The notes below the pieces were generated by a model, which was not told where the DNA came from, ran no database searches, and was given only the letters and a program-made list of their open reading frames with translations. A program made the translations under genes and the position numbers. From contig JAJEKV010000059.1 of assembly GCA_021234155.1 (NCBI GenBank), positions 1,876,182 to 1,940,181 on the forward strand: a stretch of DNA of 64,000 bases. The letters are read 5' to 3'. This document shows, one piece after another, positions 1-41,329 of this stretch. Numbering within the stretch: position 1 is the first letter of the stretch; the number at the start of each line of letters is the position of its first letter. Origin of the DNA: Isoetes taiwanensis. Taxonomy: Eukaryota; Streptophyta; Lycopodiopsida; Isoetales; Isoetaceae.

Positions 1-242
1 TGCTCATCCCTTTTTTCGGGCCCAAAAATTCCATGAAGCAGAACAATGAGGCTTTTTCGAACCCCTCAAGAAATGTGTCGTGATACTCTGTATTCATCTC
101 CAGTTTCAAAATTAGACAAAAGTATACTGGGTTGCCTAAAATCTTCTTGTCATCCAATTCAATGGGGAAATTTTGGAACTCTTTATGTTGGATTGATGGA
201 ACTGAAGAGCATCTGTAGCTACAGCGGAGCTAAACATGGTCA

Positions 243-266
243 ATAGGATTGCAAATTAAACGAGAG
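243..266 (+). repeat. Left terminal inverted repeat
   Basis: Pairs with the reverse complement of 8256-8279. The inner 20 bases differ at one position and the outer four at two. The candidate 6-bp duplication TGGTCA lies immediately outside at 237-242. The outer boundary was chosen because it makes that duplication abut both ends. Confidence 0.7.
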
Positions 267-619
267 TGTTATGCCGGCCTCGCTTCAAAGATTCCCTTTA
301 AAAACACTACTCTTTTAAAAGTGGGACATTTTTAAAAAAGTTCATCACTTTGGAAATCTGTACACTCTCGACATGCAATTTCTACCCCCCTGCAACTTTT
401 TAACTTCACATCTCTTGGCAAGGTTTGCCAAAAGTAGCTCTTTTTGATCATCGATGTTAATTTATAAAAGATTAAGTCTAAAGAACATCAAGCTAGAGGA
501 AGCTAAAAAACTTTCTGCACTTATTTTTGCAAAATATCTGAATTAGGCATATCAACATTCAACTATTTCAATCATTTGCACACTAAACCACATGGAAGTC
601 ATAATTTAACACAAGCAAA

Positions 620-3600
620 TTAAGTAAAGTCATATGTAATTTCATCATCATCATTTTTGCTTTGCTGACCACTCTCTTGCACTACTGATTTCTCCTTGTC
701 AGGTGACTTAGGCTTCTCTGTTGTTGCTTGTTCTTCTAGAACAACAACCTCAGCTACTTTTTTAAGCTCAACGAAAGTGGCTTCATCACTTAAGCAGCTC
801 GTAAGTGGAGGTTGCACCTCGGAAGACGTCAGCTTGGCAAAGTCTGAAGATGATTTGGCCCCAAGCTCTTGGTTCTCATCTGGAAGAGTTGGTAAGGCAG
901 CTAATCTTGTTTTTATAAAGTTGACGGCCTCTGCATCAATGTCCACTGCTACACAATTACGACCTTTTTTTAGTGCACAAGCAATTGTAGTACCAGAGCC
1001 AGAGAAAGCATCAAGCACCCAATCTCCTGGACGAGAAAACATATCCAGGAGATGGTTGATTAGCTTTTGTGGTTTTTGGTACTGGTTTACAACCCTGCCT
1101 TGTGCAGTAGGGTCCTGCAATTTCTGTAGAACGGCCGGAAATTCCAACACATTGGAAAAGTTTTGACAAGCAGCAGTGTTAAAATGATCCATGGTTCTTT
1201 TGCCATCAAAACTCCAATAAGCAACATGAAGATATTCGACCTTGCTCAACAGCCTTGGCCCTCCACCATGGTAGTTTATATTAGTTTTGTACCTGCACCA
1301 GAAACATTGGCAATTTAACAAAAGAAATCTTATTCTGGAATAAAAATGCATGACGTATCGTCTTAAGAAAACATTCAAACTAGACAAGTTTGGATGCGAG
1401 TAAGAAAATTACCAGACGAGGTTCTCAAATCCTGCTTGTGTAGGAGAGCTAAAGTGCTTAGCAAAATTTGACTCCACCAAATCAGCTTGCATGCTTGAAT
1501 GAAAGACTACCAACCGCCAATGCTTTGCTGTTGTCACTTCCTTGATGCCATTAATAAAATCATTGAACTCTAAATTTTTGAATGGTTCATCATCATAACG
1601 GCTGTCCTTTAGCTTAAACCCATAAGGAAGATCTGCAACTATAAGTGTAAAGTCTTGGGGCTTTACCAAGCCAGCAAGTCTTCTACAGTCACCCTGTTGG
1701 ATTGCATATAAATTATTTTGGTCAAACATTGTAAACTTTTCATAGTCAGAGGGAGCCACAGGGACCATAGCTCTTCTGGAAGCTAGTGTTCTTTCCTCCC
1801 TTTCTTCCCCGACTAAGTTCATGAAGCCCTCTGGCAAATCCTTGTTCTTCTTCTTATTCTGTGAAGAATTAATTTGTTGTGAGTCAACCAGCAGATTGCT
1901 TAAACAACAAGGCATATAAAAACATACCCAGCCTTCAAAGTTTGGAGCATATTGTGAAATCTTTTCATCAGTTGTCGAGCTAGGGTAAAGCTCTCTGCAT
2001 CTTTCCCAGGTCTCAATATTTAGTTGTTCCATTAAGCAAGTCTGGCAGGTAATAACATTTTTTTGGCTGCAGACATTCGGATGTTAGCTACTTTGTAAGC
2101 AAGCCAGAGAAATGCTAAACGGCACAAAATGAATACTTATTCCAGAATACAACAAAGTAAAACAGAGCATGGTAATCAGGTGCAATCAAGTCGATAAGTC
2201 ACAAATGTTTCTAAAGAACAAGTCACAAAACAAAGAACGTAAAGAACTGTATTCCAGAATAACTAAATTGTTTCCATAAAAACGTTTTTTCAAGAAATTT
2301 CACTTACTTGTGCATTTCCTTCGACATTTCCTCTAAAGTGAAGTCCTTATCCACAACTTTTTGCAGCAACCGTTCTAGCAACACATTGTCTGTAACACCT
2401 TGCAGTTCCCTCCAAACAGTAATGGTCATCTCCTTTTTGGGAACATCGGAACCTTTCTTCTTGTCCGAGACCTTCCCTTTAGTTTTGAGCTCCCCCCTTT
2501 CAAACATGTTAAATATTTCATTCTGCAACTCTCAAAGCTGTGAGGACAAGCAAGTTTTGTTAGCAACAAGGAACAAAGCACAAAACTAAGTCTATTCCGG
2601 AATAAAGAATGTGCTTACCCGACCATCCCTGAAGGCTAATTGAAACCAGTTGTCGTGGCAGATAAGTGACTGTCTTTTGTTTGCCTCATCATATTTGAGA
2701 CAGCACTCAATGGCACACGCTTCCTTTAGCTCCAAAGAACAAGCAGGCTTTTTTATGTCTTCTCCATACTTTTCCTTTAAAAATGAGGTACTCTCGCGGC
2801 ATGAAACGAATTTTATCGACGAAGCTCATCTTTAATTTATACTCATTGTCAGCATTGTGAGTGTTGGCAATGATCTTTGCTTCTTCATCAGTCAAACCAA
2901 CATAGACTGCACAAAGAACAGAGAGGTACCTAGGGTTGTAATTTTCATTGTACAATTGTCTCCTTGCTTTAAAACTATGATTTCCACCAAGCACGTAATG
3001 CAAGTAACTCTCTGCATTTTCTTTATCATAGTCATCAGGGCTTTCACATTGCTCTCTGTCCACTAAAACAACAAGAGGGGCCACATGTGCGTTCGGGTTG
3101 CTTCTAATTCGATCCTTAAGATTCCTCAGATGGTCCGCATAAATCTTTCTTACCTGAAGGGGTCTTTCACCAGCAGCATTTTTAGGAGGCAACTTCAAAC
3201 TTGTCACTGGAAGATAGATGACACCCTGCACATGCTTTTTTGCATTTATCTGTTCCACTCTCTCAGCAGTCTTGTCTACCTTCTTTTCTCTAATTGCAAT
3301 CCCAGGAGCCTTCCCTTTTCCTTTTGATCTTTTTCTTTGTTGCTCATCATCTGAATCATCTTCAACATCGACTCTTGCCAATACTCTCTTCTTCGGTTCC
3401 TTTGCAGCCACAGTATCCCTCGGCACGCTCATTCCAAGACGTAAGTCTGAAGTTGAAACATTTAAATCATCGTCATCAAGGCTATCGGGTTCAACCTCTT
3501 CTTCCTCTGAAGCACTGTAACTAAAGTCCTCACTTCGGGAACCACAAATAAATTGCAACAGCTGTAGTAAGGTCTGCTTCTTAAGATAGTGATTCAAGTA

Positions 3601-4367
3601 CTTGTAAAGATGATCAGGCATGACTCTGTCAAGTTTAAAGTAGTTGTCATCCAGAATCATAAACCCCTGAGTAGTTTTAATCGACAAGCGTCCACTCTCT
3701 CCAGACTCGGTGGCAGCAGAGCTAACCTCGTGAATTTGTCCGATGCAGACAAAATCAGCATCTGGTAGAAGGCTCCTTCCCCTTCGCTGTGCAACATGTA
3801 GGAAAGTAAGGGTGGAGTACTTGTTTCTGAAACCCCTGGTTATGTACCACTGGGTCTTTGGGTTCTCATAAATCTTAGGTGGAGCTGACGCTTCTACACG
3901 TGCTTGGGGATGAGGTGTACTAGACTGACCTTTGTGTTTTTTCTGCTGAGAGTCCTTTCTGTTAGACCTGCAACATTTAGAAAAAAATTGTAAGCAAGTA
4001 GCTTCAAAGAACAAAAATTTCAAGAGTCTCATTTATTTTGTTTTTAAAATGCATAAAATTAGCCTAGATTGCTGAAAATATGCTAAAAATATTCCTTAAA
4101 ACAACGAAAAACTAATCTTAACAGCTTCAATTTATCACAAGTTTTTGGCTAAAATTTAGGAAACATTTAGCTAAAAAGTACAAATTTTTGGAGACAAGGA
4201 GCCTAAATAAGTCAGTGTGTATTCCAGAATACACAGTGGTCCTCAGCAGAGAGCCAAAGTGTATTCCGGAATACACTTTGGCTCTTTGTGAGAACCATTG
4301 TGTATTCTGGAATACACTTATTGTACTAGTCTCCGTACCAAGGTGTGCGTCATGCTTACCTTTCCAT
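620..4367 (-). CDS. ParB-like domain fused to beta-class DNA methyltransferase (transposon accessory gene)
   Basis: Predicted DNA N6-adenine or N4-cytosine methyltransferase with an upstream ParB/sulfiredoxin-like domain. I read six exons with GT-AG borders and matching phases: 4367-4360, 3967-2619, 2522-2308, 2066-1928, 1858-1413 and 1292-620. Start ATG-GAA-AG joins across a perfect donor to a downstream exon. After a basic/acidic N-terminus comes the ParB-like core, with GVIYLPVTSLKLPP and GGNHSFKARRQLYNENY. The methyltransferase follows with catalytic motif IV as LIVADLPYGF, then the AdoMet-binding motif I DAFSGSGTT and GRNCVAVDID. The order IV before I defines the beta class. Exon lengths sum to 2830, one base too many. 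The reading frame shifts once near the T-run 2811-2814, so this copy may be inactive. ParB-methyltransferase fusions are known from phages and bacterial mobile elements; this one is spliced and therefore eukaryotic. Target and function are unknown. Confidence 0.82.
1331..2604. repeat. Four dispersed TATTC-YR-GAATA palindromes in or beside methyltransferase introns
   Basis: Copies of the 12-base core lie at 1331-1342 (TATTCTGGAATA), 2138-2149 and 2250-2261 (TATTCCAGAATA), and 2593-2604 (TATTCCGGAATA). All four fall in introns of the spliced model. They are shorter versions of the motif clustered at 4217-4633. Confidence 0.8.
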
Positions 4368-4633
4368 GGATTTGTCTATGTAAAGTGGAATACGGCTGCA
4401 CTAGGTTCCGTCGAAGGCGCTGGAGGCGGCGACTTGGGTTGTTAAAGCGGAATATACTACTGTGGCGCAAAAAATTTTCGTTTTAAAGGTGAGGTTACAC
4501 ACTTACAAGCTTTCTATGTGTAATAGAATACAATTCTGATAACGTACTTGCAATTGTGTATTCGAGAATACACTTTTGTATTCTGGAATACACTAAAGAA
4601 TTTTGGAATACACTATTGTATTCTGGAATACAG
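4217..4633. repeat. Cluster of GTGTATTC-YR-GAATACAC palindromes between the divergent genes
   Basis: Copies: 4217-4234 (centre CCAG), 4251-4284 (a perfect 34-bp palindrome, half-site GAGCCAAAGTGTATTCC), 4300-4317 (CTGG), 4556-4573 (CGAG), 4576-4593 (CTGG), a decayed copy near 4599-4613, and 4616-4633 (CTGG). The first three lie in intron 1 of the methyltransferase gene. The others lie just upstream of the transposase ATG at 4693. An array of palindromes beside a ParB-like gene recalls parS sites. Binding by the ParB-like protein, or regulation of both promoters, is inference. Confidence 0.88.
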
Positions 4634-4692
4634 TGTCACCATGCAAAAAAAAGGTGGTTACTAATTTTAGCTTTCTTCTTTCAGTTCTGACA

Positions 4693-7600
4693 ATGGCGGG
4701 TTCAATGTTCAACAAGCTTCCTCCACCATTCCAACCATCTGATTCATCAAATTCTGAAGGAACCACTGTTCAAACCAGGTTTTGCTGTGAGGGACGAACT
4801 TCTACAACCCCTACTTCTACAAGGTGCTTGCTCCACTTGGACGAAACGCCAAGTCCTTTAATAAGTAAACTGCCACAACCGTTTATCCCATCCCCAAGTC
4901 CACACGGGGAAACACCTCCTTTCTCAGCCACTCCTCCTGTTTCTACTAAACTTCCAGCACCTTTTGTTCCTTCCCCTGAAGTTGCAGAGGTACCACCTCA
5001 ACGATTTATTCAGAGTACACTACCCCCATCTTTTGTACATTCTTCTACTTCAATCACACACAAAAGGCCAGCAGATTTCTCTAAAGAATGTCAAATACTG
5101 CACAACTTCTCCTACCAAGATCTAGCTACAAACGAAGATAATGTTGCAGAGTTCCAGTCCACAACAAGGACGATGTTTGCAGCCACACCTCTTCAACATG
5201 ATGCTTCAACAAGTGCTGCCACAACAAGTTACAACCCTTCTCCTCCTTTCAATATTTGCCCTCCTCCATGTCCAGGCACAACATCACGTGGTCTTTTTTC
5301 TTCAAGCACACAACTGAACTCTCAAGAGGTCATCCCAAGAGTTGAACCTTCTTCAGATGATGACGACCTTGACCAAGTACAGCAACAAGGTTATGTGTTT
5401 TCTAACCAAGCTTCAAAGAAATTTAAGGTTGATTTAACCTTGCGTGCATGTTCCTCTGTAAGAAGAAAAAACCTCATGGACGAACAGAAGATGAGGAGAA
5501 TTTTGAGAATAAAATGCTGCTCAAAAAATTGCATCAGTAAATTTAACATGTCTGGACTTCGAGCAATTCGAGATACTTACAGTTCAATGTCTCTAGCAGA
5601 ACAAAATAGCTACTTAGCTTATCGTGTAAGACCAAACTACAACACCTTGCACTACATTAGTGGTGAAGAGGTCTGTCAAAAATGCTTCATGCTTGTTCAC
5701 TGTCTGGGCTCCACTAGAATGTCTCGAATACACAAAAGAATGGACAAGATCCCAGACATTAATTATCATTGTGGTCCGAGGAGAATTGTTACAATGCATG
5801 CACTGTCTGCTGTTTCTTGGATGGACAGATACTTTATAGAAACGTGTGAAAAGTTGCCAAACAGCGACATGTACCATTTATCAGACAACATCACAAAAAA
5901 AGATATTTTTCGAGAGTACAAAGAGACATGTGTCCAATCTCAACACATCTCTTATGCTCACTTTACTAGACTGTGGAAAAGTGAATTTGGCCTTGTGAAA
6001 ATACCCAGGAAGCACAGGATGCTTGTTTGCTCCAAATGTGCAGAATTAAAAAGTCAAAGAGAAATGGCTAAGACAGAATTAGAGAGAAGTAAGTTCATGT
6101 TTTGTTTTCAAAATTTCTTTTCCTTTTAAGTTGTTAACCAACTTCCTTCTTTAGACGTGGTGCAGCAGAATCTTGCTAGACGTCGTGAACAACAAGCAGC
6201 AGAAAGAAGAAAGCTTGCTAAGCACAGAAAAAAAGCTTTGGAACGTCCACTGCAATACATGTCAGTTGTGATTGACGGGATGGATCAGAAAAAGACTACC
6301 CTGCCTCATTTCCTGAACATTCCAAAAGATGTACCAGAAGAATGCTTTGTCAAAGTCCATCTTGTTGGAGCTATGGTCTTCAAAGGAAGTTTAAAGTGCA
6401 AAGTATTCTTGACATATCCTAACATACATGGTGATCCAAATCTCACTATCACCATACTAAATAGGGTACTGTGTGAACAAGACCAACTGCCTCCAGTTCT
6501 CTATCTGCAACTTGATAACACTACTAGGGAGAACAAGAACCAAACTCTCTTTGCATACCGTGCCATGCTAGTGGAACTTGGGATCTTCAAAAAAGTGAAG
6601 CTTGGATTCCTTCTTGTGGGGCACACTCATGATCAGATTGATCAAATGTTCAGCAGATTTTCTGTGCGTCTTCGTAGAAAAAGGGCATTCCGACTTCCTA
6701 CTCTTATTCGAGCTATTGAGGAGTCTTACACTCCAACACCTGTTGTTGAGCTGCTCCAAGAAACTGTAGATTTCAGAGAATTTGTCTTCTCCTCTCATTC
6801 CAACAGAGAACAAGCTGTACACAAGTTGAATGATCTAACTTTTCAACATCATGTCAAGTTTTTCATGAAGAGCGGTGAAAGCTTCTTACAAGGAAAGAGG
6901 TACGCCACAACTAAAGAATGGAGTCCATCAGAGGGATTGAGATTCCTCAAACTAGTTCCAGACAGTTCCTTAGTTGAACGTGCTGAACAGATGCCTCTTA
7001 AAAATCCTAAAGAGGCCAAGCAGAAGAAAAGTACTCCAGCTGCCTCCTTGAAAGCCATTGAGAGTGGAATCTCATTGGGCTTTAAGTATTTTACAGAAGA
7101 AGACCAGAACTGGTGGAAAAGTTTCTTTCTTGAACAAAAAATTGTCAATGAGAATTTATTCCTAAGACAGTTGAAGCAACCTTTTCAGTGGCCTAATTCC
7201 TTCTTCGAATCACAGAACCAGGCAGGTCCAAGCAGTGCCCCAGTAGTACTTCCAACAGTGGAAGATGAGGACCGAGTCATGTATCTTGGACCACGCCGAA
7301 GAAATGAGCCTGTGGGTAATATCACAGAAATTACTAAAGGTATGCTTATTGCTGTTCCAACTGTAGAGGATGACAAGGGTCGACCTTTTTGGATAGAAAA
7401 AGTAATAGACACGGTCAAAGAAGAGGGTTTAGTTACTAAACTTAAGATTCATTGGCTAGCAACACGTTCAGAAAATGCCTTTGAAGGAAGGTATGAGCTA
7501 GAAATGAGATCTCAAGGAAAAGGTAAGAAGTCAAAGAAGGTAGATTGCAGGGATGAGGTAAGCCTAAGTGAAGTGAGTATTTTGTGTTATAATTTTAAGT

Positions 7601-7848
7601 TAAGATCTGACAATCGTCTTCGATAGAGGACCATTAACTTACTAAAAAAAGCATGTAACTATGAGGAAGAAGAGGAAGAGGATGGCAATGCTTCACCATC
7701 TGTCGATAGTGATGAAGAAGACAACTCGAGTACTTCCTCAAGTGACAGTGAAAGAAGTGAAGGTGATGAAGATGGTATTAACGAAATAGATGATGACTTA
7801 GATCCCTCATTTATTGGTCCTCACACTTTACTGAACACTCCAAGGTAG
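4693..7848 (+). CDS. DUF7869-type transposase
   Basis: Likely transposase of the element. Three exons (4693-6088, 6155-7557, 7627-7848) with canonical splice sites give an open frame of about 1006 aa. The ATG at 4693 follows a CAG and is the first Met after the palindrome cluster. The N-terminal ~270 residues are proline- and serine-rich. A cysteine-rich region follows (KCCSKNCISKF, EEVCQKCF, LVCSKCAELK), typical of zinc-binding domains in this family. The second exon carries the DUF7869-like core: VVIDGMDQKK, then QLDNTTRENKNQ, then GFLLVGHTHDQIDQMFS. The spaced Asp and His/Asp residues resemble a DDE/RNase H active site. The C-terminus, encoded by the last exon, is highly acidic. No stops or frameshifts, so it may be functional. 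The family call is from motif recognition, not a search. Confidence 0.85.
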
Positions 7849-7858
7849 AGAACAAGTC

Positions 7859-7873
7859 TATTCCAGAATACAC
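7859..7873. repeat. Palindrome copy just after the transposase stop codon
   Basis: TATTCCAGAATACAC begins 11 bases after the transposase stop. Two imperfect AAGTGTAAATTTTG repeats follow at about 7886-7930. Both lie inside the element. The element's remaining sequence to the right end is AT-rich and I see no gene in it. Confidence 0.7.
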
Positions 7874-8255
7874 TTTACTTGCTAAGTGTAAATTTTGCAA
7901 ATACACTTTCCTCAACAAGTGTAAATTTTGTATGTAGTTCTAAATATTTTATTGTGAAATTTGAAAATACATGAACTTTTCTTACGGACTTTTCTTCAAT
8001 TATTTCTACAAATCAAATTCCCCTTGATTCAAATTTCTCTCTAAATATTTCTTTTCACGTGAAAATTTAGCTGTAAAAAAGTGTCACTTTTTGCTGGTAA
8101 TTTGCTCTTCCTGCAAAAAAAAATTGACAATTTTGGGGGGTTAAAACACAAAAAATCACCTCTGTTTTTGTATTTGACCTCATTTGACCCCCTTTTAGGC
8201 CAAAATACAGGGAATCTTTGGAGAATATTCCTTTTGCTCCCGTTTTGATGATTTC

Positions 8256-8279
8256 CTCTCGTTTAATATGCAATCATGT
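8256..8279 (-). repeat. Right terminal inverted repeat
   Basis: Inverted copy of the left end at 243-266, followed at 8280-8285 by TGGTCA, the same six bases that precede the left end. A further shared block at 8209-8220 (AGGGAATCTTTG) is the reverse complement of 286-297. Confidence 0.7.
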
Positions 8280-8520
8280 TGGTCATGGCATTTACAAAAT
8301 CGACGACTATGCTTAAAAGAGTTCAAAGATGAGCCATAACTGAACTTTTTCATAAATGTTTATATGCAGATGATTGCACTTCGTTTGGACAGATGGGGAG
8401 GCGCAAGAACCAACATAATGTATGCACAAGAACCCCCATAACCATGGATCAGACCCAAAGAGCCACCAAAGAAATTTCTAGCCATATCCCCCTGCAGATT
8501 TCCGCAAAGAATCAGCCCCG

Positions 8521-9675: not shown

Positions 9676-11739
9676 GCAGCGGCACATCCTTTAGTTCCAA
9701 TCCAGTGAAGCTGGAATTTACCATGAGCTCCAGGCCTTACGTGTTACCGCTATGCAATAGATTCTTGGACATTCAAGATCACGGATTAGAAAAAGTTGAT
9801 TGGGAAGAGTTGATACGGATGGATAAAGCTTGAAATGTCATAAAAGAACCTTCGATTAAATTGTATTTGCTCTTTCTAGTTATATAAATATATGGTTATT
9901 AATGAAGCATATGAGTTGGAATGTTTTTTATTTGTTTCATTACTATTTCATGCTGTCATTATTCATTATTTATGCATCTGGCGATCTTGGATGAAACATT
10001 GACTTCGTTTTATTGTAGGGCTCATGTGTTTATTCCAGATCATCAAAAGCCAAAGACACTGTCAAAATTCAAATACCTATAAGTTGGGAATTTTTCTATC
10101 CCAACTTTGATTCAAAAAAGGAAGTTAGCTATGGTGAGCTATCTTGGAGAATTATAATAATAGTGGCTTCAATATAAAAGTATGAAATCAATAGTTTTGA
10201 TCTTGCAGATAGAAACTAGAATGCGAATGAAGATAAAATGTGGTACATGTCGTTTAAGGAGAGAAACATGGTTCTTCCTCACAGCTAATTTCAGATCAAC
10301 TAATTCTAGGATGCCTTAAAAAGGTTGCATAATAAATTGAGATTGTTGCGCACTCCCATTTGAAGATTCCCTTCTAAAAAACATATTACCTATTTGAGAT
10401 GGCCTTTTTAGGGTTAAGTCCAAAAATTCATGGTGATTGCAATTTAAAATGTGCTATTTTAACTCCAAAAGAAAAAGTAACATTAGGTTAAGTTCAAAGC
10501 GGCATGGTGATTAAAATTTATAATATACTATTTCAACTGCATTCATTCATTTTACTGTTGAATAATTGTGAACAAAGGACAAAAGAGGGATATTTGTAAT
10601 AGATCACAAGTTAAATTAGAACACTAAACATAAGTGCAAGGTGTGAAAAAAGAAGTAAACATAGAACTTTCCAGTTAGAAGAAGAAGTAAAGCACCAGAG
10701 CATGTCAAATTTGTCTAGAGAAGAACCTAATCAATGTTTCCAAAATTTCTGTGTATATTGGAATAGTATTGCCAGTTGCTCATGCACTCTTATGTTATTC
10801 TAGATTAGGACCTTGCAGTCTTACGCTATTCCAGAATACAAATCTAGAGCTATAGTTTGACTTGCATGCACCACCCTAGTGTTCAAAAACCCCTCCAACA
10901 TGTCAAATTTTGTTTAAATATTGACATAGCATATGTTATCTTGCTCGAACATGAAGGTAGCAATTAATGCACATCAAAAGCATGGTTGTGTGCGTTCTCA
11001 AATCAAAGCATGGGGATTTGAGCTCTAAGGTCTTTTTCTTGTTGTTGTGGGTGGACGAATGTCCGTGCCACAACATGTTCACAAGATTACTAAAAAAGGA
11101 AATGAGATTAGACATTTACAAAGAAACATGGAAATTACAATTTACAAGTTACAATTCTATTTGACTTAATAATGCTATAGTGCATCACGTAAGAATATTG
11201 TTAGTAGTTAAAGTTATTTGCTATTAATTCCAACTATTGACATGGAAAACCATCTAAAAATAGGGTTCGCTTTAACTCGATGATAAGCTGAATGAGCTCT
11301 TGTGTGAAGAGCGTTTTAGAACTTCCTTGCAAGTTAAATATCTGATCAATGGGAAGCTTCTTCTTCATTGATATGCCATGTCAATGGGTCAACAAGCTAG
11401 TCCATTAACCACCATGTATTGCGTTAATATAAATGATAATTTACAATAAAATACAATAGTCGATCTTCGTGCCTTGAAATATGAGGGGGCATTCTTATTA
11501 ATAATTTATAGCCGCCTAGAATTAACAGGGGTAGCAATTGAATGGCATGCATCTCTGTAGATTATTTTCACTAGCAGCCTTCTTTACATAATTTGTTTTC
11601 AAATTCTCTTGACTTCTCATCTTCTTGCTGCATTAATCTCCTCACTTTCTCTTCAATTTCTTTTCTGATCTATAATACCATCTTCTCTTTCCTTGAACCG
11701 AATGCAATCTTCCATTTCTTGAAGTCTAATACATGCAAT
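9676..11739. other. AT-rich intergenic stretch
   Basis: No gene seen. It holds a diverged direct repeat at about 10410-10545 (two ~75-base copies beginning GGTTAAGT and containing CATGGTGATT). It also holds one stray TATTCCAGAATA at 10827-10838, the palindrome of the first transposon, 2.5 kb outside that element. Confidence 0.6.
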
Positions 11740-15714: not shown

Positions 15715-18579
15715 ATGGAGGCGGACTGCATAGATCCTGATGTCTTGCAGGTGAGTAGTTTAATTCGGTTTTTAATGGTTCCGGAAGTGTTCAAGCTTCC
15801 TACAATCGAACGAACCGAAATTTGACTCGAAATGCATACATTAAACAATGACCTTTCTTAATTCAGAGACTGCAGCGTATCTGCATCCAAGAACCTCCCA
15901 GCGGCCCCTATTCAAGGAACGACTTGGACTGGGATACCGAAGATCACCAGAATGTTGCCAGGAATCCAGGAACTCCGAAATCTACTGCTGTTCAATGCTG
16001 CCATATCCCCACAAACAGAGTAGAAGATTTTATCAAAGGCGAGCAGAATCTTCCCAACTGCAACACTACTTTCTACAAAAGCGCCACTCAAGGCAGAGAT
16101 CATGCAAAAAAGAAGGTCGACGAGCACGCCCATCTCAAGATCGTCAAGTGAGTGATTTTTTCCTGGTGCAGGTGGTTAATCAGGACGTAGGTGGTTGCTG
16201 TGGACATAGTCAATGGCTGGTAGTCTGCCTTTAATTTTACTGTAGTGAGCCAGATACACGTGGTTAATCAGGACATAGTCAATGGTCTATAGTCTGCATT
16301 TTAATTATACTGTAGTGGTTAATCCTGACATAGGTGTTTAATGAGGACATAGCTGCTTAATCAGGACAGTCAATCCTTGATATTTTCGACCATTTGAACC
16401 ATAATTTTGTAGTCAATAGCTCTTAGTGTGGATGGTCAATTTGATGCAAACTAACAATGTCATTTTGTTGTAGATATTGGTGTAGTTATGGGCCAAAGGA
16501 TTTGCGCAATCAACCTCGGGAAGTAAAAACCAAGACCACCCAGGCCCTAGTTGCTGAGGCCAAGAGGAATGACCCCGAGTACAAGAAAAGGCAAAGGGGA
16601 ATGAGTATCAAGCGGGGCTGCAGGTGTCATTTCACTTTGAAGCAACTATACCTGAACCCGCTATGCACCAAGATCACGTATCATGTAATGGATCATGTTG
16701 ATGTAGATGGCAAAATCTGCCATGGGACACTTGATCCTCAATGCACGAGGACAAGGCATGAAGTTGCCCCATGGTTGTCTTTAGAGAAGAGGAACTGGGC
16801 TAGGAACCTCTTACTTCAGAATCACACCCCCCAGGAGGTCTACCGACAGCATGAAGAGGAATGGGCCTTGAAGAAGAGAATGGATCCCAATTGTGAGAAG
16901 AGCAGGGACCAATTTCTTGACATGGATGATCTCCACAACCTGTCGAGAAAGATTGCTAGGGATACTTGGATGCTCCATGAAGATGTTGCCCTAAGTATAA
17001 GGATGTGGGTGGACTTACACTTGGATAGTGTTTTTATGTACCAAGAAGGAGTTCCTTTTGTTTTAGGTATCATGACTCCTTTCCAAAAGAAAATCTTGTT
17101 GGAGCACGGGAGAGACAATGCTGTGGCTATGGACTCTACTTTTAAGACAAATGATCATTGCTATAGCTTGTACACGTTGCTTGTGTATGATGCCCATGGC
17201 AATGGTGTCCCCGTTTGTTGGGTTCTCTCTTCCAGTCACTCCGAGGAGGATATAAAACCATGGCTTCTTGCTATGAAAGTGCACATCCATCATGCTGATC
17301 CGACTTGGAAGCCCTCTTGTTTCATTGTTGATGATGCCAAGGCTGAAATCAAGGCATTGGAAGCGGTTTGGCCTGAAGCTAGAATACAATTGTGCATTTG
17401 GCATGTACGAAGAAACTGGATGAAATTCCTTCTTAAGCTTGTGAAGAACAACAAGATCAGAGGTGAGATGTTCAAAGATCTCGGCCACATCATGTATGGC
17501 ACTCATGGCTTTTGGATGAATTCAAGGTTAAGTACAAAGGTTGGAAGAGGTTAATCAAGTACATGAACAGGGTTTGGACCAATAACATCACCCACTGGAT
17601 CATTGCCACAAGGATGTATCCTCATGCCAACCAGGAGACAAATGCTGCCATAGAGGCATATCATAACCAGATGAAGAGAAGGCTAGGTTTGTCGAAGCAT
17701 GCTTTGAGAGGAAGAAGAATTGATTGGTTGATATACATGTTGACTTGTAGATTGGAGACACACTTGCTATATGATAGGTTCAAGAAGGATGAAGGCTTCA
17801 AAGTGAATAGGAAACAAGAGCACATTGTTGAAACAGCAATCATAGGTGCAAGAGTCATTCCAGATGAGGCTGTAAAATGGTTGGACTTCAAGGCGGGTAG
17901 GGCAGAAGTATGGAGTCAAAATATGGATGCATGGGCAGAGGACAGGGAAGCATTGCCTTACCTAGTGGAAGTTGCCCACGAGCATTGGTCTTCTTGTGAT
18001 TGTCCATGGGGCATGAAAGGCAACATGTGCAAGCACCAAGTGAAAGTGATTCAAATGATGGCCAATTACAAGGAGGAGGACATTCTAAGAGTGTGTGGAA
18101 CTCTATATGGCTCTCAAGCTGGAGGTTTGGAGAACTTGAGGTGTTTTGGCGAGGCATACGATGATGGTCCTATTGATCCTCCCACTGATGCCAATGTTCT
18201 TGCTAGTGAGGAGGACATTGGTGAGACACAGGTGGCTGATGACATTGCTGAGGAGGAAAGCTTTTCCAAGACAACAAATCCAAAGTTACAAGCTAGCATT
18301 CATGCCACTCTTTCCCGAATCGCCTCTACCATATCTAGTAGCCCTCATTTGGCATTGCAAGCTGACTTCCTCCTACGTGAAGTTAGTCTAAAGTTGGAGA
18401 GATTAGGCAGTAGTACCACGCTAGCCACGGATTGCACCCCAAGTCTACAAGTGGTAGAGGACTTCAATGGCAAGACATTGGCTAGACCAGTTCCTTTGGT
18501 GGAGGGTATCAAGAAGAGGAAGAAGACTGTTGGTGTCAGTGTGTTCTCAAAGGAATGCCAGGGGCACATTGAGGATTGA
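15715..18579 (+). CDS. MULE transposase with SWIM zinc finger (frameshifted)
   Basis: Cuts and inserts the element. Exons by splice sites and phase: 15715-15750, 15867-16147 and 16474-18579. Exon 2 carries an N-terminal Cys/His zinc region (GEQNLPNCNTTFYKS) that continues into KYWCSYGPKDLRN and KRGCRCHFTL. The catalytic core shows AVAMDSTFKTN (first Asp), SCFIVDDAKAEIKAL (second Asp), QLCIWHVRRNW (C/H motif) and NAAIEAYHNQMKRRL (Glu). A SWIM finger follows: SSCDCPWGMKGNMCKHQ. The frame changes once between YGTHG and LLDEFKVKYKGW, near the T-run 17510-17513. That is either a one-base lesion or an unseen splice. The second intron contains motif repeats. The family assignment is secure; activity is doubtful. 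Confidence 0.92.
16170..16375. repeat. GTGGTTAATCAGGACATAG repeats in transposase intron 2
   Basis: Five or so imperfect copies of GTGGTTAATC(A/C)(G/T)GACATAG lie in the intron 16148-16473. They are the reverse complement of the GTCC(A/T)GATTAACCAC motif in the arrays downstream. Confidence 0.8.
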
Positions 18580-18649
18580 CCTTTATGTAAAGATCATGTT
18601 TTTAAAATTTCAATACATACACTGTTAAGCCAATTCATGGATTGTCCTG

Positions 18650-19215
18650 AATAACCATCTTGCAACAATGTCCTTATTAACCATGTCCAGATTAACCACC
18701 TCCCACTAATGTCCAGATTAACCATGTCCTGATTAACCACCTTCCACCGATCTGGATATATGTCCTAGGTTATCTGGACACAAGTCTAAAGTGGTTAATC
18801 TGGACATATGTCCTAGGTGGTTTATCTGGACACAAGTCCAAAGTGGTTTATCTGGACATATGTCCTGATAAACCACTCTTGGACTTAGTGGTTTATCTGG
18901 ACATGTCCAGATAAACCACCATGTCCTGGTAAACCATATGTCCACTTAGTGGTTTATCTGGACATTGTCCAGTTAAACCACCATGTCCTGAAAAACCACT
19001 GTTGGACTTAGTGGTTTATCTGGACATTGTCCAGTTAAACCACCATGTCCTGATAAACCACTCTTGGACTTAGTGGTTTATCTGGACATGTCCAGATAAA
19101 CCACCATGTCCTGATAAACCATATGTCCACTTAGTGGTTTATCAGGACATTGTCCAGGACCTTGTCCATATTAACCACCTAGGCACTTTGGTGGTTTATC
19201 TGGACAAGGTATGCA
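18650..19215. repeat. Motif array 1 of MULE 1, mixed orientation
   Basis: Dozens of GTCCAGATTAACCAC or GTCCAGATAAACCAC units and their reverse complements, partly arranged as inverted pairs (GGTTTATCTGGAC followed by GTCCAGATAAACC). It starts about 70 bases after the transposase stop and ends before the promoter of the next gene. The inverted pairing could form hairpins. Confidence 0.9.
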
Positions 19216-19568
19216 GGTACCCCTACGTACATAAATGCCACACAGACACTTTCACTCCAAAGTGTTAGCTAGATTTGATGCTGACGTGTCGTTGCCAAAA
19301 ATCGTACATATCGTTGCCAAAAAACATATGATTGGCCATAATTGTATGATTTGAATGCCTCGGCTTTGCAGCCCAAAAGCTGCGCGCCATATGCGGGCCA
19401 TTATGCCGCCCGGACTTTAAAAAGCTAGCGTCCTATTTCTTCCTCGTTCCTCTTCTGCCTTCTTCTTCGACCGGCCCTCTCGGATCTCCACTCTCGTTCT
19501 CCACTCTCGGATCTTCCTCTGCCCTTCTTCTCCACTCTTTTCCCGTCTCCTCCTTCTTACCTTAGCCT

Positions 19569-19910
19569 ATGGCAAGGCGAAAAAGACCGCCCGGGGAAGC
19601 ATCTTTGGGGTGCTCGTCCGCCCCCCCCCCCCCATCTGAACCCGGTGAGGTAAACTCTGGTGTGCGGCCCCCTCCCGAGCCCCTCAATCCCGCCGAGCCT
19701 CCCAGCCAGTCTTTCGCTTGCTTCGTTGCTCGATTTACCGTTCTGGAAGTTGAGCGCCTGATTGGCCAGGGAGCTAGAGTTAGTCCCTGTGTCCAGCTTT
19801 GGGTTGAGCGTAGGCAGCAATGGGAGGAACGCCGTCTCGAAATGACGGTGGTAGCTGCTGGCAACGGTTTTGACATGGAGCTGAGGATGCCACCACCTGG
19901 CTATATCTAG
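19569..19910 (+). CDS. Small proline-rich MULE 1 protein, function unknown
   Basis: A 113-aa open frame starting MARRKRPPGEASLG. A TATA-like TTTAAAAAG lies at about 19416 and a pyrimidine-rich leader at about 19437-19555, both typical of plant genes. AT-rich DNA with a possible poly(A) signal follows. The first half is basic then proline-rich. The second half (FVARFTVLEVERLIGQG, VERRQQWEERRLEM) is predicted helical. I recognise no domain. It lies between motif arrays 1 and 2, so it probably travels as an element gene. It may be one exon of a larger gene. Confidence 0.55.
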   Translation: MARRKRPPGEASLGCSSAPPPPSEPGEVNSGVRPPPEPLNPAEPPSQSFACFVARFTVLEVERLIGQGARVSPCVQLWVERRQQWEERRLEMTVVAAGNGFDMELRMPPPGYI

Positions 19911-20219
19911 TTTTCTGCTGCTGTCTATGTGTTTTCTGCTGCTGTCTAACTAATATCTGGTTCGAGTTCTGTTCAGTAACAAGCCACAACGGTTCCTGCT
20001 TCATATCTTTTTTGTAATCTCAATTTTTGATATAATATATGTCTATTTTAATCTCATAGCAGTGTTCCTTCTTCTTTGTCTCTTCTAATTTCTATGGGAT
20101 TTCTATTCTGTACCTTCTATTTGGTTGTCTGGTTTATGTAATAATGTAAAAGTGAAGTTCAATGTGATCTTACCCAGTCTCCAAAAACAGGCTCTGGAAT
20201 TCAAAAACAAAGACAGGTT

Positions 20220-20690
20220 TACATTCGAGATAAACCCCATGTCCCGATAAATCATATTTGTGGACATATAAGGTTTATCAGAACATGGGGTTTATCTGGA
20301 CATGTCCAGATAAACCACACCATATGGTTTATCTGGACCCCATGTCCTGATAAACCATATTTGTGGACATATGGTTTATCAGGACATGGGGTTTATCTGG
20401 ACATGTCCTGATTAACCACATCATATGGTTAATCTGGACATAAGTCTAAAGTGGTTAATCTGGACACAAGTCCTAGGTGCTTATTCTGGACATAAGTCCA
20501 AAGTGGTTAATCTGGACACAGCCCTAAAGTTGTTAATCTGGACATAAGTCTAAAGTGGTTATTCTGGACATAAGTCCAAAGTGGTTTATCTGGACACAAG
20601 CCTAAAGTGGTTATTCTGGACATAAGTCCAAAGTGGTTAATCTGAACATAAGTCTAAAGTGGTTAATCTGGACACAAGTCCTAGGGGAGA
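20220..20690 (-). repeat. Motif array 2 of MULE 1
   Basis: First mixed, then tandem units reading GTGGTTAATCTGGACATAAG on the plus strand. This is opposite in orientation to array 3. The last unit overlaps the stop codon of the zinc-finger gene at 20681, so this gene is bracketed by inverted arrays. Confidence 0.9.
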
Positions 20691-21634
20691 GTCTGCTCAG
20701 GCTGGGAGGTGGTGCCGTCCAGCAAGTCGGCCTCTAATACTTGCATACAATTTTTAATTTCTTTGTCATATTCATTCTCGTTCCAGTCCCTGTCGGATTG
20801 ATATTCAATGTCATAGGATTCTTTAATATTCTTTTTATAGAGGGCCATCTTCTTCTTCTTGTCCCTGTCCCACTCCAGAGCCCTTCTATCAACATACTCC
20901 TCGGCATACCTCTGTATGGCAGCCTCTTTTTCTGGCCCATCTGCCATCTCCTCCAGCAGTTGAGCTCCAATCATTCGTGCATCCACCTTTGACCTCTTGA
21001 GAAAACGATTTCGATTCACCCTCCACCTGTACTGAGCATCGATCTTATACTTACATATATACTTACTCAAGTCCCGGCCTGGTCTTCTCTTCTGTTTCGG
21101 CTGAGCTATCATTCTTCTTCCCTTGGCCGGGCCCTGCACCTCCACATGCCAGTCATGGACCTCTACAAGATGCTTTTGGAGCCGTGCTCTCTTAACAGAG
21201 GACCATGCACAGCCCACAAAGAGGCAGCAATGCACGCATCTTTTCTTTGAGTAATAATACCTCCGCTCCCAGGCCTCTTCATCTATGTCCGAGTCCGATT
21301 CGGAGTGCAATGCAACAACCTCTGGTGGGAGCGGCTGCCCTGTGCCACGACTGGCCCTTCTCGCCTTCTTCAATTCTCTCAGCGAATCAGGATGCAGAAT
21401 GGTTCTCTGTGGCCCCGTCTCTGGAGATGGGAACTCTTTGAGGTCCTTCAGGGCAGCGGCTTCCTCTTCAGCCGATGGTAAGTAGGGTTCCTCTTCCATT
21501 CCTGAGCTTTCAGCTCCAGATGCATGGTCTGAGCCGCTCCCTTCAGCCCCAACCGAACCTATAGAGGTGGGCGCATCGTCGGAATGGGAGGACATAGCGC
21601 CGGAAGTGGCGGAACTGCTCTGGGCGCTCGCCAT
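20681..21634 (-). CDS. MULE 1 zinc-finger protein, candidate DNA-binding accessory
   Basis: About 317 aa from the ATG at 21634 (MASAQSSSATSG). The upstream in-frame codon at 21670 is only TTG. The N-terminal third is acidic and serine-rich. A Cys/His finger follows: KRCVHCCLFVGC, then LQKHLVEVHDW. A strongly basic stretch comes next (GRRMIAQPKQKRRPGR), then a helical, charged C-terminus. The stop codon is supplied by the first unit of the adjacent motif array (CCTAGGACTTGTG), so the C-terminus may have been trimmed when the array grew. It is comparable to the finger of the second MULE at 44860. I infer that it binds the arrays; no family is recognised with certainty. Confidence 0.65.
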   Translation of the reverse strand: MASAQSSSATSGAMSSHSDDAPTSIGSVGAEGSGSDHASGAESSGMEEEPYLPSAEEEAAALKDLKEFPSPETGPQRTILHPDSLRELKKARRASRGTGQPLPPEVVALHSESDSDIDEEAWERRYYYSKKRCVHCCLFVGCAWSSVKRARLQKHLVEVHDWHVEVQGPAKGRRMIAQPKQKRRPGRDLSKYICKYKIDAQYRWRVNRNRFLKRSKVDARMIGAQLLEEMADGPEKEAAIQRYAEEYVDRRALEWDRDKKKKMALYKKNIKESYDIEYQSDRDWNENEYDKEIKNCMQVLEADLLDGTTSQPEQTLP

Positions 21635-21839
21635 AGCCAGGAACTCGGAGGTAGGAAAAAACCCGCGCAAGAGAACAGCATTCCAATAGAGCTACACGTG
21701 GCGTATGCGGAGTGGTGCTAGTCACTTCAGACAAAAATTGGGATCTTTTTGCACTCCGACCCAGATGATGACCAGATTTTTTGAATTGGTGCCCAAATGA
21801 TGACCAAAATTTTTGAATTTATGCATTTTAGGTCTAAAG

Positions 21840-24315
21840 GACGATGTCCAGATTAACCACCATGTCCATATTAACCATGTCCAGATTAACCACCTAGGAC
21901 ACATGTCTAGATTAACCATGTCCAGATTAACCACTTTAGACTCATGTCCAGATTAACCACCCAAGTCCCATGTCCAGATTAACCACTTTAGACTTGTGTC
22001 CAGATTAACCACTTTAGACTTGTGTCCAGATTAACCACTTTAGACTTGTGTCCAGATTAACCACCTAGTACATATGTCCAGATTAACCACCCAAGACTTG
22101 TGTCCAGATTAACCACCTAGGACTTATGTCCAGATTAACCACCCAAGTCCCATGTCCAGATTAACCACTTTAGACTTGTGTCCAGATTAACCACCCAAGA
22201 CTTGTGTCCAGATTAACCACTTTAGACTTGTGTCCAGATTAACCACTTTAGACTTGTGTCCAGATTAACCACTTTAGACTTGTGTCCAGATTAACCACCT
22301 AGTACATATGTCCAGATTAACCACCCAAGACTTGTGTCCAGATTAACCACCTAGGACTTATGTCGGATTAACCACCCAAGATTAACCACTTTAGACATGT
22401 GTCCAGATTAACCACCCAAGACTTGTGTCCAGATTAACCACTATAGACTTATGTCCAGATTAACCACTTTAGACTTATGTCCAGATTAACCACTTTAGAC
22501 TTGTGTCCAGATTAACCACTTTAGACTTATGTCCAGATAAACCACCTAGGACATATGTCCAGATAAACCACCTAGGACTTGTGTCCAGATTAACCACTTT
22601 AGACTTATGTCCAGATTAACCACTTTAGACTTATGTCCAGATTAACCACTTTAGACTTATGTCCAGATTAACCACCTAGGACATATGTCCAGATTAACCA
22701 CCTAGGACATATGTCCAGATTAACCACTTTAGACTTATGTCCAGATTAACCACTTTAGACTTATGTCCAGATTAACCACTTTAGACTTATGTCCAGATTA
22801 ACCACCTAAGACTTATGTCCAGATTAACCACTATAGACTTATGTCCAGATTAACCACTTTAGACTTATGTCCAGATTAACCACTTTAGACTTATGTCCAG
22901 ATTAACCACCTATGACATATGTCCAGATTAACCACTTTAGACTTATGTCCAGATTAACCACTTTAGACTTATGTCCAGATTAACCACCTAGGACATATGT
23001 CCAGATTAACCACTTTAGACTTATGTCCAGATTAACCACCTAGGACATATGTCGGATTAACCACTTTAGACTTATGTCCGATTAACCACCTAGGACTTAT
23101 GTCGGATTAACCACCTAGGACATATGTCGGATTAACCACTTTAGACTTATGTCCGGATTAACCACTTTAGACTTATGTCGGATTAACCACCCAAGACTTA
23201 TGTCCGGATTAACCACTTTAGACTTATGTCCGGATTAACCACCCAAGACATATGTCCGTCGGATTAACCACTTTAGACTTATGTCCAGATTAACTTTAGG
23301 ACACCCAAGTCCCATGTCAGATTAACCACTTTAGACTTTTGTCCAGATTAACCACCCAAGACTTGTGTCCAGATTAACCACTATAGACTTATGTCAGATT
23401 AACCACTTTAGACTTATGTCCGGATTAACCACCTATGACTTATGTCAGATTAACCACCTAGGACATATGTCCACTTTAGGATTAACCACTTATAGACTTA
23501 TGTCGGATTAACCACCTATGACTTATGTCCAGATTAACCACCTAGGACATATGTCGGATTAACCACTTTAGACTTATGTCGGATTAACCACTTTAGACTT
23601 GTGTCCGGATTAACCACCCAAGACATATGTCGGATTAACCACTTTAGACTTGTGTCAGATTAACCACCCAAGACTTATGTCCGGATTAACCACTTTAGAC
23701 TTATGTCCGGATTAACCACCCAAGTCTTATGTCAGATTAACCACTTTAGAGACTTGTGTCAGATTAACCACCTAGGACATATGTCCGGATTAACCACTTT
23801 AGACTTATGTCCGGATTAACCACTTTAGACTTGTGTGTAACCACCTAGGACAGTTTAACCACTTTAGACTTGTGTCCAGATTAACCACTTTAGACTTGTG
23901 TCCAGATTAACCCCCGGACTTGTGTCAGATTAACCACCCAAGAGACTTGTGTCGGATTAACCACTTTAGACTTGTGTCGATTAACCACTTTAGACTTGTG
24001 TCCGGATTAACCACCCAAGACTTACGTCCGGATTAACCACTATAGACTTATGTCGGATTAACCACTTTAGACTTATGTCCAGATTAACCACCTATGACTT
24101 ATGTCCAGATTAACCACTTGTGTCCAGATTAACCACTTTAGACTTGTGTCCAGATTAACCACCTAGGACATATGTCCAGTTTAACCACTTTAGACTTGTG
24201 TCCAGATTAACCACTTTAGACTTGTGTCCAGACTAACCACTTTAGACTTGTGTCCAGACTAACCACTTTAGACTTGTGTCCAGATTAACCACCTAGACAG
24301 ATTAACCACCTAGAC
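21840..24315 (+). repeat. Motif array 3 of MULE 1: ~2.5 kb of 26-bp tandem units
   Basis: Roughly ninety units of about 26 bases with the invariant core GTCCAGATTAACCAC and a spacer in a few flavours (TTTAGACTTAT, CTAGGACATAT, CCAAGACTTGT). Some units in the middle (about 23050-24060) lack bases and read GTCGGATTAACCAC or GTCAGATTAACCAC. There are no unique spacers. Orientation is opposite to array 2. Confidence 0.95.
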
Positions 24316-24615
24316 AGAATAGAAATCCCATAGAAATTTGAAGAGAAAGAGAGGAAGGAACACTATTGTGAGATTAAGATAGACATCTATTATATTAAAA
24401 ATTGAGATTACAAAAAAAAAGATAGGAAGCAGCCTTGTGGCTTGTCACAGAGATGAACTTGAACTTCTTCACAAAAAAAGAGAGGCATAAGCCCAGCACA
24501 AAAGGCCAAATACCAGATATTTGTTAGACAGCTGCATCCGCTCTGTACCAAGATATTAGAGTGTCCAGGTAGAAAACTAGAGAAAACTATCAACTGGGAT
24601 TACATACGATGGTGC

Positions 24616-39209: not shown

Positions 39210-41250
39210 ATAAAGAAAATTTTATTTAATTTAATTTATGTCTATTGCTCTCTTGGGCCTTGAGAGGCCATGGAGCACATGAACATCTTTTTTACATGCA
39301 TAGTAACAGGGATCGGTGTTCATCCACCGCCCTGATATAAGCCCCTAATACCATAGGTGGCATCAACAACAATGAGTAAAACTCTGTGTCCTGAATGTCA
39401 AATTTTTCTCTAATATGTACAAACCCCGAGCATTGCAGAAAAGTGTGTTTTTCGTCTTCTACTAGCCCCGAGTCACAGACTTTGCATAACCTGTCATTTG
39501 CTGGGATTCTTGACCACCTCCCTTTCTCTATTTCTAAATTGTGAGAACCCGTTCTGTATCTTGCTATTAATTGTCTGAATGATTTGGGGATGCTCGAGAC
39601 TAGATATCCTTGACATTTATACTCTTCCATATGGTTGACATGTGCCTAATAGTGCAACATTTTCGTTCCTGGTTCAGCCCACATCCGATCAACTGCCAAA
39701 CTCTTTAAAAGATCATGTGCATTCTCTTTATCTGTTGGCCAATTTGTTTCATTTACTCCGTATTTTGCTGCCCATAGTAACAAATCTTTCTTCCAGCCAT
39801 GATCTGAATCCAGTAGCGCTTGATGTGACAACCTGACTGTGTCTTGTTCATTTACCCGATTGAAGAAAGATATTGACTAAACCAATGCCTCTAGTTCCAG
39901 AGGGAACATGCCGACCTCCGCCAATGCTATCACATAAGGGATCTGAGGTCTAATTCCAAGTTCTGCTCTCAAAAACAGTTTTTGGACTAATTCTACATGT
40001 GCCCACGTTTTGGCTGAAATGTCTGGCCCCCAAATCGGCACCCCATAAAGCACCACAGTCTGCACCAGCGTTTTAAATAGGATCTTCTTTAGCCCCCAAT
40101 CTGTGAGAGATGCCTTGCTACATCTCCCCAACATGTTATATAATGCAGCCTTCCCACCTGTCACCCTTTTACTCACACATTCCTTCCAGTTATATTTGGA
40201 CGAAATGTCTATCCCCAAGTATTTATAGCATTCCACATTTTCTAGCATCTGCCCTTGATAAGTAAATCTTGGTCTGTCCGTGGTGCCAAATACCATAATT
40301 TTTGATTTGGCTATATTTACTCTCATCTTTTTAGCTTCACAAAAAAGCTCTAAATTGTTCAGGTGTTCTTGTAGTGTCTCTCTCTTACGGGCCAGAATCA
40401 CCACATCATCTGCATATAAAAGGAGTTGAATAACATAATTACCCAGCTTTGTGCCCACCAATGATCTCTCTTTCAGCCATGTATCTAACTCGTCAATGAA
40501 TATCCCAAATAACGTTGGCGACAACGGACATCCTTGTCTTACTCCAATCGTGCTCTTAATGAAGGTATCATAATTCTTTGCAATTTTTATCAGCACCTCT
40601 TCATATAATTGTGACACTGCTGCTCTGATGTCTTTTGGGACCCCTATCTTCATCATCCGTTCTCCCAATTCCTTATGAGGAATTGTATCAAATGCTTTTG
40701 CAAAGTCAATAAACGCGGCGTATAGTGATGCACTGGGTGCTTTTGCTTTTTCTATTAACACACGTAGGGTAAGAAGATGATCTAGTGTGCTATGCCTGTT
40801 TCTGAAACCTACTTGGCAATATGAGTGCTTCTCTGCCTGTTCCGCCCATGAACTGAGTTTACCTTCCAAAAGGCTACCCAAAATTTTAGCAAATGTGCTT
40901 CCAATCAAGATAGTTCTATAATTGGATGCCATTTTCTTGTCTCCTGCTTTGTATATTGGATGGACCCGGTTCAGTTTCCAACTAGCTGGCAGCCCCTCCA
41001 TAACACTTTTGTTTAATAAGCTGGTAAGAACACCTAGCGTCTGATTTCCCCCCCAGTTTAGCAATTCCACACATAAACCATCCATATCATGTGCTTTATT
41101 GTTTGCTAATTCTAATAGCACTTCCTCCACCTCGCCTTCAGTAAACAAGTTTGCACTTGATGTTATTTTTGACATGCATTCTGCACCATCCTGTTCATAT
41201 ATACTCCTAACTAAATGTGTCAAAGAATCAATCTCCAAATTAGCATGCTC
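39210..41250 (-). mobile_element. 5'-truncated LINE retrotransposon
   Basis: The minus-strand frame 41301-39877 encodes a non-LTR reverse transcriptase, with AFIDFAKAFDTIPHK, STIGVRQGCPLSP and the catalytic LLYADDVVILA. Two further frames, 39831-39646 and 39630-39292, continue the same protein after frameshifts. They end in the C-terminal zinc-binding zf-RVT region (CKVCDSGLVEDEKHTFLQC). There is no endonuclease domain, so the 5' end is lost. The 3' tail is a short TTAAA-type repeat (about 39217-39238) rather than poly(A). It sits inside a tandem repeat whose copies flank it on both sides. Dead copy. Confidence 0.9.
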
Positions 41251-41329
41251 AGTCATTGGAGCTAAACATTTCTCAATCAAATTCTCCAGGCAATTCAACA
41301 AACCAATAGAGACCTGTAACTGAGGATTC

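Follow-up and report, generated by a model that had tools for sequence, protein, structure and literature searches.

The 64,000-nt stretch of Isoetes taiwanensis DNA analyzed here (contig JAJEKV010000059.1, hereafter the window) contains a complete DNA transposon of ∼8 kb at positions 243-8279. The element encodes a DUF7869-type transposase and, on the opposite strand, a ParB-like/beta-class DNA methyltransferase (ParB-MTase), and its noncoding parts carry repeated copies of a long palindrome. Related elements of the same genome carry arrays of the same kind, with a different palindrome sequence in each subfamily. We lean slightly toward the reading that the ParB-MTase recognizes and methylates the palindromes of its own subfamily and so protects the element from silencing; this reading is favored because the anatomy resembles that of the VANC/VANDAL system of Arabidopsis in both position and pattern. 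As far as the searches show, three things are new: the DUF7869 transposon, its very high copy number in a land-plant host and, most of all, palindrome arrays that are specific to subfamilies.

Recurrence of the Gene Pair

Of the 9903 first-look candidates obtained by searching the 1.66-Gb genome with DUF7869 (PF25273), 150 were scored, and ten loci with long open transposase frames were fetched. A first-pass annotation, made from the letters of the window alone, had asked whether the two genes recur side by side in other copies; a divergent MTase match was found beside the transposase at all ten fetched loci. The matches covered 587-930 of the 945 residues of the MTase model at eight loci, 186 at C1018 and 94 at C1039. 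Twenty further stretches of 3.2 kb, taken upstream of other high-scoring DUF7869 matches, contained an MTase match in ten cases, a count in which blind placement of the stretches can miss the gene. Several copies have stops or frame breaks, although one of the stop counts also includes introns bridged by the matches. A stand-alone host MTase gene with a transposase inserted beside it was ruled out by the single pair of ends that encloses both genes, by the empty paralogous sites lacking these ends, and by the recurrence of the pair in ten of ten loci. Further transposase pieces were detected near two of the ten loci (L020:7967-8639 and L028:7205-8728), and copies therefore lie close together or nested there.

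Subfamily-Specific Palindrome Arrays

The element holds 11 copies of the palindrome TATTC-NN-GAATA, against a mean of 0.01 in simulations, and the window has one further copy at 10827. All 11 lie outside the exons of the gene model (Table 1). With C1034b and C1039 left out, the window element and those of the other eight loci (nine in all) had 6 of 111 sites in tblastn blocks, which can bridge introns. The simulation and reversed-pattern controls ruled out chance palindromes in an AT-rich background. Among six 8-kb control slices of the window, five had no palindrome more than five times and the sixth has another array with 15.

Table 1. Features of the transposon in the window
Feature	Position	Strand	Remark
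Left target-site duplication TGGTC(A)	237-242		Present twice here and once in each of two aligned empty paralogous sites
Left terminal inverted repeat	243-266	+	Start possibly 242 if the duplication is 5 bp
ParB-like/beta-class DNA methyltransferase gene, six exons	623-4367	-	Model of 945 residues (one X); frame broken near 2780, within exon 2
Exon with S-adenosylmethionine-binding motif I, LDAFSGSGTT	623-1292	-	Order IV then I, as in the beta class
Palindrome	1331-1342		Last intron of the methyltransferase gene
Exon holding motif IV (DLPYG) and the motif VIII region	1413-1861	-	
Two palindromes (2138, 2250)	2138-2261		Intron 3 of the methyltransferase gene
Palindrome	2593-2604		Intron 2 of the methyltransferase gene
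ParB-like core containing the box LGGNHSFKA	2779-3330	-	phrog_1033 E = 3.1e-6 in a relative
Three palindromes TATTC-NN-GAATA (4220, 4262, 4303), 41-42 bp apart	4220-4314		Intron 1 of the methyltransferase gene
Three palindromes (4559, 4579, 4619)	4559-4630		Between the two genes
Transposase gene, three exons (4693-6088, 6155-7557, 7627-7848)	4693-7848	+	1006 aa, open throughout; RNase H fold
Palindrome	7859-7870		10 bp behind the transposase stop codon
Right terminal inverted repeat	8256-8279	-	
Right target-site duplication TGGTC(A)	8280-8285		Single copy in two aligned empty paralogous sites

We then surveyed 31 loci (the ten fetched loci, the 20 upstream stretches and the window) for palindrome classes. 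At least three exact copies of one class were present in 27 of them (TTC class in 8, TAA in 16, TGA in 1, and TGC in 2); two of the other four had none (L030 and L046), L047 had two TTC sites, and L029 had two TGA sites and one TAA site. C1034b, of the TGA class, additionally holds one TAA site. The site consensuses are AAGTGTATTCCGGAATACACTT (TTC, 104 sites), CGGTATAAATTTATACCG (TAA, 279 sites), GTATGAATTCATAC (TGA, 8 sites only), and CTATGCGCGCATAG (TGC, 26 sites); TAT...ATA is common to all four, and the inner half-site differs. One-mismatch sites are nearly absent in the TTC class. Because selection of the sites had already required this core, allowing one mismatch at most, its conservation in the site logos was not used as evidence; the proportion of exact sites was used instead.

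Neighboring TTC-class sites at distances of up to 60 were exactly 42 apart in 24 of 46 cases, and TAA-class neighbor distances (n = 207) peaked at 21, 28, 30, 32, and 41-42. A strict 10.5-bp phasing was not established, as the period scan gave a broad maximum near 11-12 and no peak at 10.5. At the center of the 104 TTC-class sites, CG was counted 48 times, CA or TG 39 times, and other dinucleotides 17 times. Deamination is expected to leave such CpA or TpG where CpG is methylated, and the pattern suggests cytosine methylation of these elements by the host. Genome-wide, AAGTGTATTCCGGAATACACTT was matched at 5,772 places (up to two mismatches) and CGGTATAAATTTATACCG at 8,871 places (up to one mismatch), compared to 0 and 1 places for the reversed-pattern controls; among the matches listed, two cases (C46 and C16) were located ∼2 kb upstream of a scored DUF7869 match, as expected.

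Ends and Insertion Site of the Element

The plant-type DNA transposon of the first-pass annotation was borne out by its ends, target-site duplication, and empty sites. The terminal inverted repeats are 24 bp long and imperfect (ATAGGATTGCAAATTAAACGAGAG and ACATGATTGCATATTAAACGAGAG); their common core, ATTGCA-N-ATTAAACGAGAG, is found with up to three mismatches at only two places in the window (0.12 expected), and TGGTCA directly adjoins both ends on the outside. To look for empty sites, a 480-base query in which the flanks were joined without the element and without one duplication was searched against the whole genome. It gave 31 matches. The window itself accounted for two of these and a second filled copy of the locus for another two; among the remainder, nine were nearly full-length over the 480 bases and one more ran across the junction. 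In two of these ten (L049 and L052) the junctions were aligned and had a single hexamer (TGATTA and TGATCA), vs. TGGTCA twice in the window. Terminal inverted repeats, target-site duplication, and empty sites together are those of a cut-and-paste DNA transposon.

End pairs were looked for in the fetched loci, and none was found at five of them. Among the five other elements with ends, three have exact 5-bp duplications (TAATG, TAATT, and TCTAC), and in the other two the duplication is only 4 bp exact, or 5 bp with a shift or mismatch. Because of the three exact cases, the true target duplication may be 5 bp and the element 242-8279. The second filled locus is inverted and lies ∼211 kb away on the same contig (G000:C1066:2095671-2104192), with flanks of 98-99% identity and 8.03 kb between them, suggesting a recent segmental duplication. 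Within the window, a degenerate stretch at 10319-10842 resembles the element's left end, with an alignment score of 106 vs. 91 for the best of 100 shuffles, and holds two further palindrome-like sites at 10796 and 10827; it is possibly a relict copy.

The Two Genes

Both gene models were drawn by eye from splice sites and reading frames. The two divergent spliced genes annotated at first between the inverted ends are both there, as a three-exon model on the forward strand and a six-exon model on the reverse strand. For the transposase, the DUF7869 match has E = 1e-50 and 172 bits against a Pfam cut-off of 26, and the protein has the RNase H fold with its acidic triad. The modeled transposase piece terminates in strands resembling a small beta barrel (residues 397-463, positions 7345-7545), which, judging from the model, could be a chromatin- or DNA-binding module. 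The DUF7869 protein search returned 57 relatives, many in the liverwort Riccia and others in oyster, the alga Cymbomonas, and further sources; pattern-based scans confirmed none in viral contigs. Riccia sorocarpa has many annotated DUF7869 proteins (P0019-P0049), and no ParB-MTase from Riccia was among the matches of the MTase search. DUF7869 was not found mentioned in the literature searched.

The exons of the MTase gene, on the reverse strand, are 4367-4360, 3967-2619, 2525-2308, 2066-1928, 1861-1413, and 1292-623. The beta-class assignment of the first-pass annotation agrees with an N6_N4_Mtase (PF01555) match above the cut-off (E = 2.8e-17), with motif I as FSGSG and with motif IV preceding motif I. 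This motif order defines the beta class of DNA methyltransferases, in which the catalytic motif IV is DPPY or SPPY, usually DPPY. The nearest solved sequences are CcrM, MboIIA, and RsrI, which we take, partly from their listed names, to be adenine enzymes of the beta class; they share the order IV to I with the Isoetes protein, which differs in having D[LI]PYG in place of the usual DPPY, a ParB-like fusion, and a spliced plant gene. D[LI]PY is kept in seven of the ten loci with sequence there; L044 has DIPC, and C1041 and C1075 are decayed. The early description of ends and genes stood, but it had missed the palindrome array and a frame break in exon 2. The counterpart of exon 2 at L011 is open across the position of the break. 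The published assembly is described as nanopore reads polished with Illumina reads (PMC8566536), and an assembly error at the break is therefore possible.

The ParB part, also named in the first-pass annotation, is a weak match in the window copy (phrog_723, E = 0.003). ParB-like PHROG families matched several alignment members (phrog_723 in 5 of 11, phrog_1033 in 3, and phrog_6392 in 2; best E = 3.1e-6), and DUF6551 was present below threshold in 7 of the 11. These matches are modest evidence that the N-terminal half contains a ParB-like core. A single-sequence structure model of the core had a predicted local distance difference test (pLDDT) score of 48, and the PDB profile matches, two thymidylate synthases (best E = 0.0014) and one portal protein (0.3), were taken as chance. 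The stretch in front of the core (3360-3870, model residues ∼36-206) is similar in several TTC-class copies; family matches were sought for it and none was found.

The protein search with the MTase model, in which only 7991 candidates were scored, gave 13 weak generic methyltransferases. The search with the ParB alignment A2 gave none and carries little weight, as low-complexity words of the acidic stretch probably flooded the candidates. Pattern-based scans confirmed no ParB relatives in viral or prokaryote contigs, and a tblastn comparison of one MTase exon with phages detected no relative.

Selection on the Two Genes

The ratio of nonsynonymous to synonymous substitution rates (dN/dS) was estimated for six TTC loci, with 15 pairs per region. 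Within the transposase, 14 of the 15 pairs ranged over 0.06-0.11 for the DUF7869 part and 0.07-0.28 for the N-terminal part; the remaining pair, which is very close, gave 0.27 and 0.69, respectively. The defined values for the MTase were 0.07, 0.26, and 0.48 in the ParB exon, 0.14, 0.31, 0.49, and 0.50 in the motif-IV exon, and 0.02, 0.14, 0.17, 0.19, 0.39, and 0.50 in the motif-I exon. All MTase values of at least 0.26 involve C917 or C1041, which are decayed copies. We read these sequence comparisons as purifying selection on both genes, more securely on the transposase.

Comparison With Known Systems

The first-pass annotation knew of no described transposon group with such an accessory gene; in this respect it has been overtaken by the brown alga Ectocarpus, where Sola1-1_Ec32 carries a 1104-aa ParB-MTase gene opposite its transposase (PMC12477816). 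The excerpted text of that paper proposes self-modification for the brown algal transposon and cites green and red algal relatives of such accessory genes. As described there, the likeness to Isoetes lies in a ParB-like part and an N4/N6 DNA methyltransferase joined in one protein and transcribed opposite a DNA-transposon transposase. The Ectocarpus element is a 21.5-kb Sola1 transposon, whereas the Isoetes element is an 8-kb DUF7869 transposon from a land plant, present in very many copies and flanked by a duplication of 5-6 bp; palindrome arrays specific to subfamilies are present in the latter and are not mentioned for Sola1 in the same excerpts.

The closest parallel in anatomy is the VANC/VANDAL system of Arabidopsis. 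According to the parts of the reports available, VANC acts on its own VANDAL element, binding short, tandemly repeated motifs in introns and upstream regions and removing silencing; motifs and VANC proteins diverge together, which in the authors' view allows spread at small cost to the host (PMC5735166; PMC10398659). An element-encoded factor and short repeated motifs in introns and upstream, diverging between related families, are common to both systems, and such family-specific motifs were found here. The Isoetes element falls outside the VANC/VANDAL group, as VANDAL is a Mutator-like element (MULE) with VANC and the Isoetes element has a DUF7869 transposase and a methyltransferase. To our knowledge, VANC is not a methyltransferase. 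Its function, going by the excerpts, has been demonstrated, whereas that of the Isoetes protein is deduced; palindromes are not mentioned in the available portion of PMC5735166.

DNA-modifying enzymes aboard DNA transposons are known from two other settings. Viral Mariner elements carry methyltransferase genes besides the transposase, with an endonuclease alongside, in elements of large DNA viruses, and no ParB part is mentioned in the sections available (PMC3627910). Fungal DNA transposons of several superfamilies carry TET/JBP genes that move between superfamilies (PMC12730594). This enzyme is a dioxygenase and not a methyltransferase, and in the accessible text palindromes appear once, as absent at the ends of shared segments (PMC12730594).

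Proposed Mechanism and Alternatives

The element belongs to a large family of cut-and-paste transposons in one plant genome and encodes a DUF7869-type DDE transposase and a ParB-MTase. We propose that the ParB-MTase would recognize the palindrome of its own subfamily, which is repeated in introns and the promoter region, and would methylate these places, with adenine as the most likely target. Either the methyl mark or the protein bound there would keep the element expressed against host silencing, and palindrome and reader-writer may have changed together as subfamilies split, so that each subfamily would serve itself. The idea of self-marking gains weight from the difference in array sequence between subfamilies. 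Binding of the palindromes by the ParB-MTase, rather than by the transposase or a host factor, is inferred, as are the catalytic activity of the enzyme and the anti-silencing outcome. An extended version, which we offer tentatively and hold less probable than not, is self/non-self tagging: each subfamily would pair a ParB-type, sequence-specific adenine methyltransferase with its own parS-like palindrome arrays, and the pair would diversify by switching the inner half-site (TATtcc, TATaaa, TATgaa, and TATgcg). Thousands of copies might thus fall into groups blind to one another, each marking, activating, or counting its own members alone.

Several observations weigh against self-recognition and self-methylation. 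Motif IV departs from the usual DPPY, the MTase frame of the window copy is broken, and none of the loci read showed both genes intact. The dN/dS values are saturated and undefined in 32 of 45 comparisons of the three MTase regions, and six of the 13 defined ones are 0.31-0.50, with one more at 0.26. The ParB match is weak, and the unrelated Pfam family IgA0_D2 scores equally in 3 of 11 alignment members (best 0.0014). Ten of the 20 upstream stretches lack an MTase match, some of them holding palindromes, although blind placement may miss the gene; genome-wide sites were tied to such elements only in the two cases noted among the matches listed. Decay of the central CpG in 39 of 104 sites suggests that the host does methylate cytosine there and, accordingly, that any protection is incomplete. 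Co-inheritance alone would make the palindrome class track the ParB clade, and it could be the transposase or a host factor that uses the palindromes.

The last possibility takes a definite form if the palindromes are binding sites of the transposase or an accessory protein, for transposition or autoregulation, and the MTase gates transposase access by methylating them. CACTA/Spm elements carry subterminal repeats of this kind as transposase binding sites, 6 of the 11 sites here lie in the promoter/intron-1 region common to both genes, and gating by a self-encoded methylase was one suggestion of the first-pass annotation. Transposase sites are expected close to the ends, however, and the palindromes sit mid-element and in introns; the left end is separated from the nearest of them by >1 kb and the right end by ∼400 bp. 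We regard this explanation as unlikely. Less probable still is a ParB part that loads on the palindromes as a parS-like, cytidine triphosphate (CTP)-dependent clamp and spreads over the element, with the methylase marking it for copy control or for exclusion of other copies: parS sites do look like clustered long palindromes, as the arrays do, and the ParB-like core mostly keeps the LGGxHSxKA box, but the match is weak and the pLDDT of 48 gives no usable structure. We give least credence to the MTase gene as a passenger spread by linkage and the arrays as functionless tandem duplications. The stops and frame breaks in several copies, the 42-bp array step that looks like tandem duplication, and the dN/dS of 0.26-0.50 in some MTase pairs would fit it; the least saturated comparison gave 0.07-0.14, the TTC class is nearly without one-mismatch sites, the same kind of array has a different sequence in each subfamily, and exons are free of palindromes, all of which speak against it.

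If self-recognition and self-methylation by the ParB-MTase is correct, plant transposons would have a second sequence-specific system against silencing, built independently of the first and using a bacterial-type enzyme, and the element would supply a set of protein-palindrome pairs for sequence-specific epigenome editing. The role of N6-methyladenine (6mA) in land plants is unsettled. In eukaryotes more broadly, 6mA has been described as controversial (PMC12695648). The Isoetes genome holds thousands of predicted targets, with defined sequences, for a predicted plant-encoded adenine methyltransferase, and the four natural palindrome specificities serve as mutual controls.

Other Elements in the Window

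A second element-like region at 16445-24318 has a MULE/SWIM transposase gene (Pfam MULE 4e-19, SWIM below the cut-off), a separate 336-aa frame at 20684-21691 with no Pfam match and, by eye, a zinc finger, and long arrays in noncoding DNA that include TGTCCAGATTAACCA and the palindromic CTGGACATGTCCAG. The region resembles a further motif-array transposon of the same genome, closer in type to VANDAL. Frames at 32255-34862 and 39880-41328 resemble, by eye, remains of a Copia retrotransposon and of the reverse transcriptase of a long interspersed nuclear element (LINE).

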